Positions 28,798-33,204 of a stretch of 64,000 nt of DNA are shown here, piece after piece (position 1 is the stretch's first letter; every line of letters starts with the position of its first letter). The DNA lies in assembly GCA_945873205.1 (NCBI GenBank), contig CAMCCC010000008.1, positions 1 through 64,000 on the forward strand, read 5' to 3'. Both the position numbers and the translations under genes were made by a program. The notes beneath the pieces were generated by a model that ran no database searches, had not been told where the DNA came from, and saw only the letters and a program-made list of their open reading frames with translations. The DNA comes from an uncultured bacterium (GTDB lineage Bacteria; Bacillota; Clostridia; Oscillospirales; Oscillospiraceae).

Positions 28798-29496
28798 ATG
28801 TACAACATTCTTGTGTGCGACGATGAGCGGGACATTGTCTCCGCCCTGCGGATCTATCTGGAGCCGGAGGGCTACCGGGTGCTGGAGGCCTACAATGGCC
28901 AGGAAGCCCTGGAGGTGCTGAGCCGGGAGCAGGTGCACCTGGTGCTGCTGGACATTATGATGCCCAAGCTGGACGGCATCAGCACCATTGCCCGCCTGCG
29001 GGAGACCAGCAATGTGCCCGTCATCATGCTGACCGCCAAGAGCGAGGACAGCGACAAGGTGCTGGGCCTGAACATCGGGGCGGACGACTATATCACCAAG
29101 CCCTTCAATCCTCTGGAGGTGCTGGCCCGTGTCCGCAGCCAGCTGCGGCGCTATATGCAGCTGGGGGGCAGCGCTGTGCCCGCCGGGGCGTTGACCATCG
29201 GCGGCATCAGCCTGGACGACGGCAGCAAGGATGTGACCGTGGACGGGGAGCCGGTGAGCCTGACCCCAACGGAGTACGAGATTCTGAAGCTGCTGATGAA
29301 CAATCCCGGCCGGGTGTTTTCGCCCAGAGAAATGTATAAGCTGATCTGGAAGGATGAGCCCTACGGAGCGGAGAGCACCGTGGCGGTACATATCCGGCAC
29401 CTGCGGGAAAAGGTGGAGATCAACCCGGCGGAGCCCCGGTACATCAAGGCGGTCTGGGGCCAGGGCTATAAGATCGAGAGGGGGAAGCAGGCATGA
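28798..29496 (+). CDS. Response regulator, OmpR/PhoB family
   Basis: This is a 232-residue regulator with an N-terminal receiver domain and a C-terminal winged-helix DNA-binding domain. The acidic pocket is Asp8/Asp9, the phosphorylation site is Asp52 (LLDIMMPKLDG), and the conserved Lys is in ADDYITKPF (about 102). The DNA-binding half has LTPTEYEILKLLMNNPGRVF and VAVHIRHLREKVE. It overlaps the sensor kinase by 4 bp (ATGA). The target genes are unknown. Confidence 0.96.
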   Translation: MYNILVCDDERDIVSALRIYLEPEGYRVLEAYNGQEALEVLSREQVHLVLLDIMMPKLDGISTIARLRETSNVPVIMLTAKSEDSDKVLGLNIGADDYITKPFNPLEVLARVRSQLRRYMQLGGSAVPAGALTIGGISLDDGSKDVTVDGEPVSLTPTEYEILKLLMNNPGRVFSPREMYKLIWKDEPYGAESTVAVHIRHLREKVEINPAEPRYIKAVWGQGYKIERGKQA

Positions 29497-31634
29497 AGAA
29501 ATTGAAAAGCAGCCTGGCAGCCAAGGTCGCTGCCTCCCTGCTGCTGGTGGTGATGGCGGTGGGGATGCTCTACAGCGCCATAGGCATCGGCGTCATGTAT
29601 GAAAAAGGCGCCTATTCCGGCAACGGCATGGTGCAGGTGCAGGAAAGCTATCTGAAGCCCTGGTGCGTCAGCAATATGTACAACCTGATGGAGCGCTACC
29701 GCTATGGGGAGCTGCCGGAGAATCTGGATACCATATCGGGCATGGGCTTTGAAATTTACGACGAGAAGGACAGGCTGGTCTACGCCTCCCAGGGGATCGA
29801 CGATTCCATTCTGAAAACCAGCCCCTACGGTTTCAACTACCCGGCGGAGAGCGTCATCGTCAACCGCATCCGGGGCGATATCAACAGCGCGGTCATCACC
29901 GATGGAAGCGACGGGGATGATCATTACTTCGCGGAAGAACCTTTTGAGAAGGAAGCCCTTGAGGAGGACCTGCCCGAGGAAACCGCCCCTGCAGAAGCTT
30001 CTGCAAGCACAGAATCCCCGGCGCCCACGGAAACCCCGGCGCCCACGGACTCTCCGGCGCCTGCGGAAACCCGGGCCCCCACGCTGGAGCCCACAGCCGC
30101 CCCGGAGGAGGACACCGTGCCGGACATCAGCACCTTTGTCAAGCGCTATAAGATGGTGGGCTATGTGCGCAACGATGTGGACAGCAACAGCCATGTGGGC
30201 TCCATGCTGCGGCTGCTCAGCATTTGTTATGCCCATCGGACGGACTTCATCTGGGTGCTCTGCGGCAGTGCGCTGCTTGCGCTGCTGTGCTTTGTGTTCC
30301 TGATGGCCGCCGCCGGGCACAAAACGGGCCTGGAGGGCGTGCAGTCCGGCTTCACCGAGCGGGCGCCTTTTGATCTGTTTACCCTGCTGATCGCCGTAGC
30401 CGGGGCAATTTGCTGCTCCATTGCGGTAGAATTTTCCTATGTGGATTCCATCCCGCTCCAGCTGGTGGGCTACGGCCTGACCTGCGCTGCCGGCGTGGTT
30501 CTGTGCCTCTGGTGGTGCATGAGCTTTGCGGTGCGGCTGAAGCTGCACACGGTGCTGAAAAGCTGCATCTGCTTCCGGGTTCTGGTCTGGTGCTGGCAGA
30601 TGCTAAAGCGGCTGTGGGCCTTTGCGCGGGAAGTGTTCCTGGGCATGAAGCTGCTGCCCCGGGCCGCGCTGGTCATTGGCGGAATTTTGCTGGTGGAGTT
30701 TTTCTGGATTTGCGTCTGTGAGGGCAACGGCGGAATGCTCTTCGGCTGGTTCGTGGAGCGGCTGGTGCTGGTGGCGCTGACGGTGTATGTGCTGCTGTGC
30801 ATGAAGCGGCTTTTACAGGCGGGGAGGGAAATTTCCGAGGGCAACCTGGATTACCATGTGGACACCGACCGGATGCGCGGCCCCCTGAAGGAGCATGGGG
30901 AACAGCTGAACCGGATCACCGAGGGCATGACCAAAGCCGTCAACGAGCGGATGAAGTCCGAGCATTTCCGCACCGAGCTGATCACCAACGTGTCCCATGA
31001 CATCAAGACGCCCCTGACCTCCATCATCAACTATGTGGATCTGCTGGAGAAGGAGGAGATCGACAACGACAAGGCCAGGGAATATCTGGCGGTGCTCTCC
31101 CGGCAGTCCGCCCGGCTGAAAAAGCTGATTGACGATCTGATGGAGGCCTCCAAGGCCAGCACCGGCAACGTGGCCGTGAACTGGGAGCGCTGTCAGCTGA
31201 ACGTGCTGCTGGACCAGTGCGCCGGGGAATACGCCGAGAAGCTGAAAGCGGCTCAGCTGGAGCTGGTGGTCACCAAGCCGGAAGAGCCGGTGGTGATCCT
31301 GGCCGACGGGCGGCACATGTGGCGGGTCTTTGACAACCTGCTGAGTAACATCTGCAAGTACGCCCTGGCGGGTACCCGGGTCTACCTGAACCTGGAGAAG
31401 GCAGAAGGCAAGGCGGTGGTCACCTTCCGCAACATCTCCGCCAGCCAGCTGAACATCAGCGGTGACGAGCTGATGGAGCGCTTCGTCCGGGGGGACAGCT
31501 CCCGCAGCACCGAGGGCAGCGGCCTGGGCCTCAGCATTGCCCGGAGCCTGGTGCAGCTGCAGAAGGGACAGCTGGACCTGACCGTGGACGGCGACCTGTT
31601 CAAGGTGACGCTGCAATTCAATATTGCGGAATAA
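29493..31634 (+). CDS. Sensor histidine kinase with long Pro/Thr-rich extracellular segment
   Basis: This 713-residue membrane kinase pairs with the upstream regulator. It has one N-terminal helix (about 10-32), then an external part ending in a Pro/Thr/Ala/Glu-rich stalk (about 150-210, with repeats such as ESPAPTETPAPTDSPAP). About five further membrane helices follow (roughly 245-440). The dimerisation helix has VSHDIKTPLTSI (His502). The ATPase has the N-box NLLSNICKYA and G2 TEGSGLGLSIA. The usual DxGxG G1 box is absent; instead FRNISASQLNISGDEL is found, as in a known kinase subgroup. Confidence 0.92.
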   Translation: MKKLKSSLAAKVAASLLLVVMAVGMLYSAIGIGVMYEKGAYSGNGMVQVQESYLKPWCVSNMYNLMERYRYGELPENLDTISGMGFEIYDEKDRLVYASQGIDDSILKTSPYGFNYPAESVIVNRIRGDINSAVITDGSDGDDHYFAEEPFEKEALEEDLPEETAPAEASASTESPAPTETPAPTDSPAPAETRAPTLEPTAAPEEDTVPDISTFVKRYKMVGYVRNDVDSNSHVGSMLRLLSICYAHRTDFIWVLCGSALLALLCFVFLMAAAGHKTGLEGVQSGFTERAPFDLFTLLIAVAGAICCSIAVEFSYVDSIPLQLVGYGLTCAAGVVLCLWWCMSFAVRLKLHTVLKSCICFRVLVWCWQMLKRLWAFAREVFLGMKLLPRAALVIGGILLVEFFWICVCEGNGGMLFGWFVERLVLVALTVYVLLCMKRLLQAGREISEGNLDYHVDTDRMRGPLKEHGEQLNRITEGMTKAVNERMKSEHFRTELITNVSHDIKTPLTSIINYVDLLEKEEIDNDKAREYLAVLSRQSARLKKLIDDLMEASKASTGNVAVNWERCQLNVLLDQCAGEYAEKLKAAQLELVVTKPEEPVVILADGRHMWRVFDNLLSNICKYALAGTRVYLNLEKAEGKAVVTFRNISASQLNISGDELMERFVRGDSSRSTEGSGLGLSIARSLVQLQKGQLDLTVDGDLFKVTLQFNIAE

Positions 31635-31682: not shown

Positions 31683-31920
31683 CCAAAAGAGTCCATTTTA
31701 GATGCTGCACCATTGGATTTTGCCGGCCAAAGGCTTCCCCTTGAGGGGAAGCTGGCGGCGCAGCCGACTGATGAGGTGGCAAGTAAAAACTGGGAAAAGC
31801 AGAAACTTCCGTCAAAAAAGAAGGATTTCCACCTCATCCGCCCAGTGTGCGCACTGGACACCTTCCCCTCCAGGGGAAGGCTTGAGAAAGCGCTCTCCTT
31901 CCTTGCGGTGTGGTTTCTTG
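31683..31920. repeat. Composite family A repeat, near-copy of the one at 21.1 kb
   Basis: The order and most bases match the copy at 21097-21335: AAAGGCTTCCCCTTGAGGGGAAGCT, GACTGATGAGGTGGCAA, a non-palindromic centre with CCGTCAAAAAAG, CCACCTCATCC with its tip, and CTTGAGAAAG. This copy lies between the kinase terminator and the small-peptide module. The tip of the right half has one change (ACTGGACACC). Confidence 0.85.
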
Positions 31921-31927
31921 TGCTATA

Positions 31928-31957
31928 TTGACTTCAATTACCATGATATGGTATATT
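31928..31957 (+). promoter_or_regulatory. Promoter of the small-peptide transcript
   Basis: TTGACT (31928-31933) and TATATT (31952-31957) are spaced 18 bp. The next 55 nt carry a hairpin CACCC-GAAAGG-GGGTG that contains the ribosome site of the 27-residue peptide. Confidence 0.65.
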
Positions 31958-32012
31958 TTGGATCATCAAGGGGCGAGGCGGTCAGCTACACCACCCGAAA
32001 GGGGGTGAGCCA

Positions 32013-32096
32013 ATGCGAATTACTTTAACGATAACATTACATAAGCTAATGTTCCAGTTGATTGTAAAAAGCAGAAACCGCCACTCTGCCAAGTGA
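32013..32096 (+). CDS. 27-residue peptide, candidate type I toxin
   Basis: This gene is too short for ordinary gene finding. It encodes MRITLTITLHKLM, then FQLIVKSRNRHSAK: a mainly hydrophobic first half followed by a basic tail. The ribosome site AAGGGGGTGA matches the 16S tail in 9 of 10 positions, with ideal spacing, and is sequestered in a GAAA-loop hairpin. The stop codon lies inside a terminator hairpin. A strong promoter faces it from the right. This layout is that of toxin mRNAs in type I systems. The toxin role is inferred; I cannot match it to a named family. Confidence 0.62.
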   Translation: MRITLTITLHKLMFQLIVKSRNRHSAK

Positions 32097-32151
32097 CGGT
32101 TTCCATGGAAATTTTCACTTAACGAGCTGACCGTTGGTCATCGCTCCTTGT
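32064..32151 (-). ncRNA. Predicted convergent antisense RNA (candidate antitoxin)
   Basis: The predicted RNA of about 88 nt starts 7 bp past the -10 box at 32158-32163. Its 5' end folds into a hairpin (GAGCGATGACCAACGGTCAGCTC), and it ends with the terminator hairpin at 32074-32103 followed by TGCTTTTT. It would be fully complementary to the end of the peptide gene and its 3' region. Both RNAs carry CGGTCAGCT near their 5' ends. Existence rests on promoter and terminator signals only. Confidence 0.6.
32074..32103. terminator. Bidirectional terminator at the end of the peptide gene
   Basis: The stem pairs GAAACCG with CGGTTTC and, after one mismatch, CACT with AGTG around a 6-nt loop. On the minus strand TGCTTTTT follows, so it fits best as the end of the antisense RNA. 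It contains the peptide stop codon. On the plus strand a second hairpin, GAGC-TGACC-GTT-GGTCA-TC-GCTC, followed by TTGTGTTTTT, is at 32124-32156. Confidence 0.7.
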
Positions 32152-32157
32152 GTTTTT

Positions 32158-32186
32158 ACTATACCACGGTCTGTCAAGGCCGTCAA
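32158..32186 (-). promoter_or_regulatory. Strong promoter of the antisense RNA
   Basis: On the minus strand TTGACG (32186-32181) and TATAGT (32163-32158) are spaced exactly 17 bp. No gene lies downstream on that strand for more than 2 kb except the antisense region to the small peptide. Confidence 0.78.
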
Positions 32187-32206
32187 TGAATAAAAAATAA
32201 ATTTTG

Positions 32207-32230
32207 GCTCCCCGGTTCCGGGGAGCTTTT
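32207..32230 (+). terminator. Hairpin terminator before the methyltransferase
   Basis: GCTCCCC pairs with GGGGAGC and is followed by TTTT. It isolates the small-peptide module from the next gene. Confidence 0.75.
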
Positions 32231-32269
32231 CTGCATCTGTAAACGAAAGGTAAAAAAGGATTACAGTCC

Positions 32270-32343: not shown

Positions 32344-33204
32344 ATGTGGATTTCAGATAAATGGCAGGATTTTGAACTGATTGACTGCTCCAAGGGCGAA
32401 AAGCTGGAGCGCTGGGGGAAGTTTTACCTGGTGCGGCCGGACCCCCAGGCCATATGGGATACGCCCCGGCGGAACGTGCACTGGAACGACCGGGACGCCC
32501 GCTATCGCCGCAGCGAAACCGGCGGCGGCAGCTGGGATAAGGGCCGCCTGCCTGCCAACTGGCAGGTGCGCTATGGGGAACTGACCTTCAACGTCAAGCC
32601 CATGAACTTCAAGCATACCGGCCTTTTCCCGGAGCAGGCCTGCAACTGGGATTTTGCCATGCAGAAAATTCGCTCCGCCGGCCGGCCCATCAGCGTGCTG
32701 AATCTCTTCGGCTACACCGGGGCCGCCACCGTGGCCTGCGCCAAGGCCGGTGCCCAGGTCTGCCATGTGGACGCGGCCAAGGGCATGGTGGCCTGGGGCA
32801 AGGAGAACGCCGTTTCCTCCGGCCTGGCCGATGCCCCCATCCGCTGGATCGTGGATGACTGCGCCAAGTTCGTGGAGCGGGAGATCCGCCGCGGCCGCCG
32901 CTATGACGCCATCATTATGGACCCGCCCTCCTACGGCCGTGGCCCCGGGGGCGAGGTGTGGAAGCTGGAGCAGAATCTGTGGCCCTTCGTATCCCTCTGC
33001 GCCGGGGTGCTCAGCGACGAGCCGCTGTTTGTGCTCATCAATTCCTACACCACCGGCCTCTCCGCCTCGGTGCTCAGCTATGTGACCGAGAGCATCTTCA
33101 CCAAAAAATTCGGCGGCCGGTCCGACAGTCAGGAGCTGGCCCTGCCCGTCACCGACAGCGGGCTGTATCTGCCCTGCGGGGCGACCTGCCGGTGGGAAAG
33201 ATGA
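32344..33204 (+). CDS. SAM-dependent RNA methyltransferase-like protein
   Basis: This is a 286-residue class I methyltransferase. The SAM-binding motif is VLNLFGYTGAATVACAKAGA (about 119-138) and the acceptor motif is IIMDPPSYGRG (about 196-206), a DPPSY of the kind seen in 23S rRNA methyltransferases of the RlmI/RlmL group. It lacks the PUA domain of RlmI (compare the gene at 46884). The target is unknown. The gene begins shortly before the ecf operon but has its own promoter. Confidence 0.86.
   Translation: MWISDKWQDFELIDCSKGEKLERWGKFYLVRPDPQAIWDTPRRNVHWNDRDARYRRSETGGGSWDKGRLPANWQVRYGELTFNVKPMNFKHTGLFPEQACNWDFAMQKIRSAGRPISVLNLFGYTGAATVACAKAGAQVCHVDAAKGMVAWGKENAVSSGLADAPIRWIVDDCAKFVEREIRRGRRYDAIIMDPPSYGRGPGGEVWKLEQNLWPFVSLCAGVLSDEPLFVLINSYTTGLSASVLSYVTESIFTKKFGGRSDSQELALPVTDSGLYLPCGATCRWER

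Follow-up and report, generated by a model that had tools for sequence, protein, structure and literature searches.

The 64,000-nucleotide stretch of DNA analysed here (the window) contains a unit of ~300 bp that we read, with a probability of roughly 80%, as a type I toxin-antitoxin-like module with a 3'-overlapping antisense RNA, a toxin mRNA closed between its 5' and 3' ends like those of hok and AapA, and a peptide of a new toxin family. The unit lies between a histidine kinase gene on its left (29493-31634; Pfam HisKA and HATPase_c) and a SAM-dependent methyltransferase gene on its right (32344-33204; PF10672). A first-pass annotation had already proposed a type I module here, and this proposal gains support at the sequence level from conservation of the peptide and of the antisense promoter, and from the occurrence of PF16935 Hol_Tox peptides in the same framework. 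The predicted parts of the unit are as follows.

31928..31957, + strand: promoter of the toxin mRNA, TTGACT-18-TATATT (10 of 12 consensus positions), with TG preceding the -10 box; the transcript is expected to start near 31964
31964..32231, + strand: expected full-length toxin mRNA of ~268 nt, its ends placed by inference
31967..31987, + strand: 5' arm of the long-range helix, whose sequence resembles that of the antisense RNA 5' end
31989..32008, + strand: Shine-Dalgarno (SD) hairpin, CACCACCC-GAAA-GGGGGTG, which contains the SD sequence AAGGGGGTGA
32013..32096, + strand: open reading frame (ORF) of a toxin-like peptide of 27 aa, MRITLTITLHKLMFQLIVKSRNRHSAK, for which homologues were found
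32066..32103, - strand: intrinsic terminator of the antisense RNA, which overprints the last codons of the peptide (SRNRHSAK-stop)
32066..32151, - strand: putative antitoxin, an antisense RNA of ~86 nt with ends placed from its promoter and terminator
32125..32150, + strand: 3' arm of the mRNA; the opposite strand is the 5' end of the antitoxin RNA
32158..32186, - strand: promoter of the antisense RNA, TTGACG-17-TATAGT (10 of 12 in the window copy), also preceded by TG
32207..32230, + strand: likely terminator of the full-length toxin mRNA, GCTCCCCGGTTCCGGGGAGC-TTTT, a terminator-like hairpin with a short T run

The ORF at 32013-32096, the SD within its GAAA-capped hairpin, and the promoters at 31928-31957 and, on the minus strand, 32186-32158 are all present as the first-pass annotation had described them. 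All promoter and terminator calls come from simple consensus scans, and the hairpin at 32207-32230 is absent from the list of a stricter terminator scan. The annotation had recognised no named peptide family, and the window peptide indeed has no match in Pfam or NCBIfam. The 9-mer that it had noted, CGGTCAGCT, does occur at 31979-31987 and as its complement at 32125-32133, but the repeat is longer than was described, with 31967-31987 and 32125-32150 forming 21 pairs around one 5-nt bulge. Its remark that both RNAs carry this 9-mer near their 5' ends holds as well, as inverted repeats make the two predicted RNA 5' ends alike. The inverted similarity reaches outward to both -10 regions (31937-31987 and 32125-32186), as if the antitoxin gene had arisen via an inverted duplication of the toxin promoter and leader. 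The predicted antisense RNA is complementary to the 3' part of the mRNA and not to the SD.

The first-pass annotation had staked its reading on conservation of the peptide frame and of the antisense promoter in relatives, and both were found. A search with the peptide matched 31 of 300 genomes of the family at E<=0.1, and a profile (A1) matched 42 of 101 genomes of the genus at the same threshold, with up to 11 matches per genome; both counts include the window's own genome, which is 91% complete and in which one copy of the module was found. A class-wide profile search returned 5 of 391 genomes at E<=0.01, namely, the own genome and four partial matches from other families: one is a remnant with an intact antitoxin (L268), two fell below the score cut (L269 and L270), and one was not among the module hits (L271). 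From the loci at hand, 110 distinct ORF hits gave 102 full modules with usable flanks in Clostridia, after exclusion of six hits scoring <32 and of two loci with short or N-filled flanks (L105 and L017). The records that carry modules are labelled, for example, Oscillospiraceae, Ruminococcaceae, Lachnospiraceae, Blautia, Eisenbergiella, Butyricicoccus, and Christensenellaceae. Recurrence in 102 full modules makes the arrangement more than chance, and by these sequence comparisons the unit is a real, conserved family.

The antisense promoter was sought 30 to 150 nt past the stop codon, with random 120-nt windows from the same loci as controls. A site matching TTGACA/TATAAT at 11 or more of 12 positions was found in 95 of 102 modules and in 21 of 1,601 control windows; at 9 or more of 12 positions the counts were 101 of 102 and 143 of 1,601, and the lone module below that level (L008) has lost its antisense-promoter region. 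Upstream of the ORF, a sense promoter-like site with at least 9 of 12 matches was seen in only 75 of 102 modules. An antisense terminator at the end of the ORF was found by the scan in 81 of 101 modules. As in a type I system, the peptide gene is small and conserved, with its own, likewise conserved SD and start codon, and an antisense RNA gene with a predicted promoter and terminator overlaps it.

Codon comparisons indicate that the peptide is under purifying selection across the family. Among pairs of ORFs of equal length (25 or 27 aa) with pS from 0.1 to 0.6, counted over codons outside the terminator, the median pN/pS was 0.36, and the ratio was below 1 in 98% of 566 pairs. For the window peptide, pN/pS was 0.25 against its nearest relatives (L072 and L087) and 0.81 to 1.05 against seven distant 27-aa members (pS, 0.47 to 0.59), so that selection on the window's subgroup is indicated by the two near relatives. 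Hydrophobic residues alternate along the peptide (RITLHIG-xYTVTIIV); in the window variant, MRITLTITLHKLMFQLIV, the alternation is kept in the first half and is less clear in the second. The beta moment, calculated with the Eisenberg scale, was larger than the alpha moment for all 89 distinct peptides, that of the window included, versus 1 of 9 helix-like peptides, and the longest apolar run had a median of 3 residues versus 12 in the same nine. The window peptide, at 27 aa, is under the length limit of the AlphaFold2 tool, and a 30-residue relative (L103; alignment A3 of 26) stands in for it; the prediction places strands at residues 2 to 7 and 10 to 15, with a pLDDT of 89 for residues 1 to 10, 80 for residues 11 to 20, and 57 for the tail (mean, 75.3; pTM, 0.30). 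In these models the peptide looks like a beta-hairpin, unlike the usual membrane helix. A place among the membrane-associated alpha-helical type I toxins was considered and rejected, as the beta moment dominates and the apolar runs are short. A review, in the part cited here, describes an alpha-helical membrane segment in the characterised membrane-associated type I toxins and in its Table 1 additionally marks a beta-sheet somewhere. A widespread beta-hairpin class, if true, would broaden that alpha-helical picture and suggest a different mode of action.

At the end of the ORF in the NRHSAK family, the last codons (SRNRHSAK-stop), read as their reverse complement, make up the antitoxin terminator. 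On the antisense strand, the stem at 32074-32103 forms an uninterrupted helix of 14 pairs, G.U included, followed by TGCTTTTTAC. The first-pass annotation had called this terminator bidirectional, which does not hold for the window copy, where C.A mismatches interrupt the sense strand of the stem and no T run adjoins it. In an alignment of 40 sequences the stem is 99.5% paired, and 5 of its 11 pairs show double changes. At its inner nine positions, counted in the 94 of 102 modules that fit a search pattern with C or T fixed at one position, the sense strand has 0 G.U and 167 A.C combinations, and these 167 are G.U on the antisense strand. Part of these A.C positions are forced by codons, since in 101 of 102 modules the A of the stem belongs to the TGA stop; the CGC codon, by contrast, is free to vary at its third base, which is C in 97 of the 102, T in 4, and was not found in 1. 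Changes in the stem are compensated even when they alter a residue (N to D in L089 and N to Y in L105). In L393 the ORF stops before the tail and the hairpin is placed after its stop codon, and the tail is likewise absent from the TSKKAKTQ...ATPHK group. Judged from these alignments, the conserved tail of the peptide is, at least partly, an RNA feature, and the ORF-end hairpin is the terminator of the putative antitoxin and, in the window copy, a poor sense-strand terminator. With such an overprinted terminator, an antitoxin would plainly have shaped the sequence of the very toxin it controls.

We compared the two arms of the predicted mRNA closure, taken as the 5' leader and the stretch from the stop codon to the antisense -10 box. 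The mean duplex energy was -48.8 kcal/mol for arms of the same module, -35.4 kcal/mol with arms of other modules, and -27.3 kcal/mol with mononucleotide-shuffled arms, and in 39 of 102 modules the own arm paired better than any of 40 others. Covariation was counted in an alignment (A2) of 40 sequences picked by hand from the 67 of 102 that passed an identity and length filter, for a structure made up of the outer arm helix, the inner arm helix, the SD hairpin, and the ORF-end stem. Twenty of its 35 pairs had changed on both sides, in 108 cells, a level reached in 0 of 500 shuffles; controls with a slid partner gave at most 13 pairs and 27 cells, a comparison in which the counted structure has an advantage because it was taken from the window and L005. 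Counts of further pair types were less striking, with 13 of 500 shuffles reaching the observed number. Within the arms, double changes affected 7 of 8 pairs of the outer helix, which in this alignment was derived from L005 and whose columns the window's subgroup does not share, and 6 of 9 pairs of the inner helix. The window mRNA (31964-32231) is itself predicted to be closed by 21 arm pairs, with P>=0.92 for every base of the 5' arm.

Wobble pairs point to the strand on which the arms fold. Read on the sense strand, the arms hold 188 G.U, 33 A.C, and 159 transversion positions beside 3,065 Watson-Crick positions; G.U outnumbers A.C in 73 modules and is outnumbered in 6, and a diverse subset of 43 modules gave 70 G.U versus 20 A.C. 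The G.U share was 0.85 for arms of the same module and 0.69 for arms of other modules, so part of the excess is baseline. Since the arms and the ORF-end stem are biased in opposite directions, opposite strands appear to be structured, the arms in the sense RNA and the stem in the antisense RNA, and the toxin mRNA should therefore extend over the antitoxin gene. We conclude that the mRNA most likely continues beyond the ORF-end hairpin, because the pairing of its 5' end with the 3' stretch (~20 to 30 bp) shows compensatory change. The end-to-end pairing of the mRNA that the first-pass annotation suggested agrees with the covarying arms but not with the transcript end it had assumed: a sense transcript that ends at 32074-32103 would miss the 3' arm that this pairing requires.

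The SD hairpin is conserved, and 2 of its 7 pairs show double changes in the 40-sequence alignment; a separate alignment of 20 leaders gave no SD-hairpin covariation above shuffles. In the wobble count, the search pattern for this hairpin matched 31 of 102 modules, some with wrong loops, and it was left out. The SD is predicted to be closed in both states, with an unpaired probability of 0.15 in the full RNA and 0.01 in the short RNA. When the 3' arm was blocked, predicted access to the SD fell in 40 of 100 modules and rose in 8, a weak effect, and the helix meant to extend the SD hairpin had no covariation above shuffles. In these models, an extension of the SD hairpin is a weakly supported account of how the antitoxin would act.

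The leader was also found in front of other peptides. A covariance model of the leader alone (R1), whose training set held three membrane-helix leaders and no Hol_Tox leader, matched 20 of 61 genomes of the genus at E<=0.001 and 38 of 150 genomes of the family at E<=0.0001, the own genome being among both. Among 59 loci taken from these matches, at most 30 from each search, 52 had the full module by our criteria, with arms and antisense promoter, and 7 did not. They gave 51 distinct ORFs, two of which were set aside as spurious (MAFARF... in L378 and MDVGKA... in L383). Sorted by eye, with Pfam deciding for two Hol_Tox peptides and the moments for nine helix-like ones, the remaining 49 distinct peptides comprise 37 beta-type peptides, 9 of membrane-helix type with KAC, KAY, KAR, or NAC at the C terminus, and 3 that look like holin-like toxins, of which two pass the Pfam cut-off of PF16935 Hol_Tox (L372 and L374). 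The same leader precedes KAC/KVC/KVY peptides in both genome contigs and viral contigs, and 4 of 5 such loci have an antisense promoter matching at 12 of 12 positions; in the fifth, the promoter region lies beyond the end of the contig stretch.

A second unnamed family, of membrane-helix type (...LYIAPKAY and ...LTAKAC), sits in the same framework of leader, arms, and antisense promoter (L347, L349, L357, L361, L366, L378, L383, L385, L388, and L391; L034, L111, L179, and L255), and the four scanned members all stayed below the cut-offs of Pfam and NCBIfam. Some viral contigs (L159, L176, L197, L209, L221, L230, L239, L253, and L254) carry holin-like peptides whose GGTGGTCTGGCTCA...GAAAGGGGGTGA leader is related and has a complementary stretch on the 3' side; in a 250-nt search, the antisense promoter there reached just 8 to 10 of 12 matches. 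That the window peptide may be a toxin is best supported, indirectly, by the slot it shares with Hol_Tox. We lean, by a small margin, toward seeing here a modular type I framework in gut Clostridia. Its single mirror-symmetric RNA circuit, with toxin mRNA and antitoxin alike at their 5' ends and the antitoxin terminator overprinted on the toxin ORF, would serve unrelated peptides: Hol_Tox, membrane helices ending in PKAC or PKAY, and the undescribed beta-hairpin toxin class of the window. The leader model R1, the arms, and the antisense promoter together give a rule for finding toxin slots without knowing the toxin.

Other accounts of the unit must be weighed against a type I module with a closed mRNA. 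In one, the two RNAs share a bidirectional terminator, as in Fst/RNAII, so that the mRNA is ~140 nt long and contacts the antisense RNA at the 3' end of the ORF only. The near-palindromic stem suits this account, as do the scans, since a sense terminator-like signal of some kind lies at the ORF end in 49 of 102 modules, and a sense terminator hairpin further downstream was seen in no more than 28 of 101, compared with 54 of 768 control windows; these same counts suggest that mRNA ends may vary across modules. We nevertheless consider a shared terminator improbable, given that the window's sense strand has the C.A mismatches and lacks the T run noted above, and that arms which covary and favour G.U on the sense strand demand an mRNA that includes the 3' arm. 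We hold it to be similarly doubtful that the peptide is RNA regulated in some other role, as an antimicrobial, a signal, or a regulator in the manner of ComI, which inhibits competence, although the Hol_Tox relatives score to NCBIfam ComI under its cut-off and a cationic beta-hairpin resembles antimicrobial beta-hairpins. Control as tight as that predicted here, by an SD hairpin, arm closure, and an antisense RNA, suits toxins better, and so does one framework shared by unrelated peptides.

The position of the unit bears on a further account, in which it is a small MITE-like mobile or repeat element whose arms are terminal repeats and whose ORF is functionless. Near relatives carry the unit at differing sites: homology to the closest modules is confined to 31946-32166, and in those two genomes the methyltransferase locus is homologous from 32251/32264 and lacks the module. 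The methyltransferase gene is present in 96 of 102 genomes, among which 30 loci were compared; 0 of the 29 from relatives carry the module, 26 of them with enough upstream DNA to be informative (L307, L316, and L330 have <310 nt), so the module is not at a conserved site. Tandem copies also exist. A MITE would not, on the other hand, be expected to have polar promoters, a terminator specific to one strand, an SD hairpin, or a constrained peptide, and the peptide frame and antisense promoter are conserved; we regard this account as very unlikely, and the unit may still be moved by other elements. Just upstream of the module, 31705-31905 is a partly palindromic repeat of ~200 bp of the CTTCCCCTTGAGGGGAAG type, MITE/REP-like, that matches the own genome 47 times, in many cases over almost its full length and at ~90% identity or more.

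Four IMG/VR contigs carry full modules, and three antitoxin-only remnants (the second unit of L335, L268, and L390) stand against one copy without an antisense promoter (L008). In L335 (Vescimonas fastidiosa MM35, NZ_AP023416.1; 4001-4430 of the locus), a complete module is directly followed by an antitoxin-only unit that has the terminator, arm, and promoter, no ORF start, and no annotated feature. A script had flagged 10 of 101 antitoxin units as toxin-less: six belong to a long-tailed group for which the span it searched was too small, in L273 the ORF is there but its leader is altered, and three are remnants by eye. As far as these few cases go, tandem copies, IMG/VR contigs, and antitoxin-only remnants fit toxin-antitoxin behaviour.

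For a type I module of this kind, we propose the following mechanism. The toxin transcript would read through the antitoxin terminator and close end to end, and the 5'-3' helix and the SD hairpin would keep the full-length mRNA silent, as described for aapA and hok (in part, PMC6733600). A steadily made antisense RNA would bind the 3' half of the mRNA, over the arm and the end of the ORF, and lead to RNase III cleavage, which is described for Bacillus subtilis antitoxins with a binding site at the mRNA 3' end (PMC6562991, in part). The 5' arm of the mRNA and the 5' end of the antitoxin would compete for the 3' arm, since their sequences are alike; binding of the antitoxin would free the 5' arm and may tighten or lengthen the SD hairpin, compare SR4 on bsrG in the same source (PMC6562991). 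The peptide would be made once the module or the supply of antisense RNA is lost, or once the 3' end of the mRNA is trimmed, and, with its two beta strands and basic tail, it would act against the cell that makes it, with the membrane as the most likely site.

We asked whether the peptide or the RNAs are already represented in databases or the literature. Among 20 A1 members, Pfam, NCBIfam, and PHROGs gave single-member matches only, at E values of 0.011 or worse, and PADLOC and PDB sequences gave no match. Membership in TxpA/PF16935 Hol_Tox was rejected, as the window peptide matches no profile and the 20 A1 members gave no Hol_Tox match. Rfam returned nothing at gathering level for the window or 12 loci, and its sub-threshold matches at 31900-32260 were far under the cut-offs. 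A phage collection gave no match for the window unit and two weak matches in phage records for a relative's module. The plasmid match is one record, of V. fastidiosa, at five places, with no gene listed under the match in an incomplete gene table. Literature searches with four peptide strings found no paper, and those on type I systems and gut Clostridia gave, among the papers listed, no title or abstract start that describes the peptide or the framework. In the passages of PMC6563280 used here, on type I systems in Clostridia, there is no mention of Lachnospiraceae, Ruminococc-, or Faecalibacterium; they report sequences resembling TxpA and Fst in C. bolteae, one resembling Fst in C. asparagiforme and, citing Fozo et al. 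2010, in silico candidates in clostridia. Members of the window peptide family may be among those candidates. Our best reading is that the peptide family is new to the libraries searched and that the module is a new arrangement of the type I kind.

The first-pass annotation had likened the module to Fst/RNAII and TxpA/RatA, and as to type I kind the likeness holds. In TxpA/RatA, BsrG/SR4, and BsrE/SR5 of B. subtilis, as predicted for the module, the antitoxin RNA is complementary to the toxin mRNA in its 3' part and the toxin has <60 aa; the predicted transcripts of the module converge as in txpA/ratA, and its SD would be sequestered in a hairpin as in bsrG (B. subtilis features from parts of PMC6562991 and PMC4147584). 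The window peptide is, in contrast, different from those of B. subtilis, the antitoxins there measure 163 to 222 nt versus an inferred ~86 nt here, and the window module differs in that its antitoxin terminator lies on the ORF and the 5' arm of its mRNA resembles the 5' end of the antitoxin.

With AapA/IsoA of Helicobacter and with hok/Sok the module shares a 5'-3' closure of the mRNA plus an SD hairpin, as predicted, and the long-distance interaction is indicated by both prediction and covariation. IsoA spans the 5' portion of its toxin gene, whereas the window's antisense RNA (inferred, ~32151-32066) starts downstream of the ORF, stops short of the SD and of the start codon at 32013, and has the complement of the 3' arm as its 5' end. 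For these systems, the parts of PMC6733600 cited here describe toxin mRNAs closed by a 5'-3' interaction and local SD hairpins, and AapA/IsoA RNAs that overlap in cis.

Fst/RNAII (par of pAD1) resembles the module in its small peptide, convergent RNAs that meet at a hairpin, and repeats near both 5' ends. In par, according to part of PMC4147584, both RNAs use one terminator, and they pair through the direct repeats DRa and DRb, which prevents ribosomes from binding. In the window the repeats are inverted, which makes the RNA 5' ends alike rather than complementary, and the hairpin serves mainly the antisense RNA, with no sense T run at the stem in this copy; we rejected membership in that family. 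PF16935 Hol_Tox is found in the same framework of leader, arms, and antisense promoter (L372 and L374), and its peptide is unrelated to that of the window, with a helix-like hydrophobic segment in contrast to the beta pattern described here.
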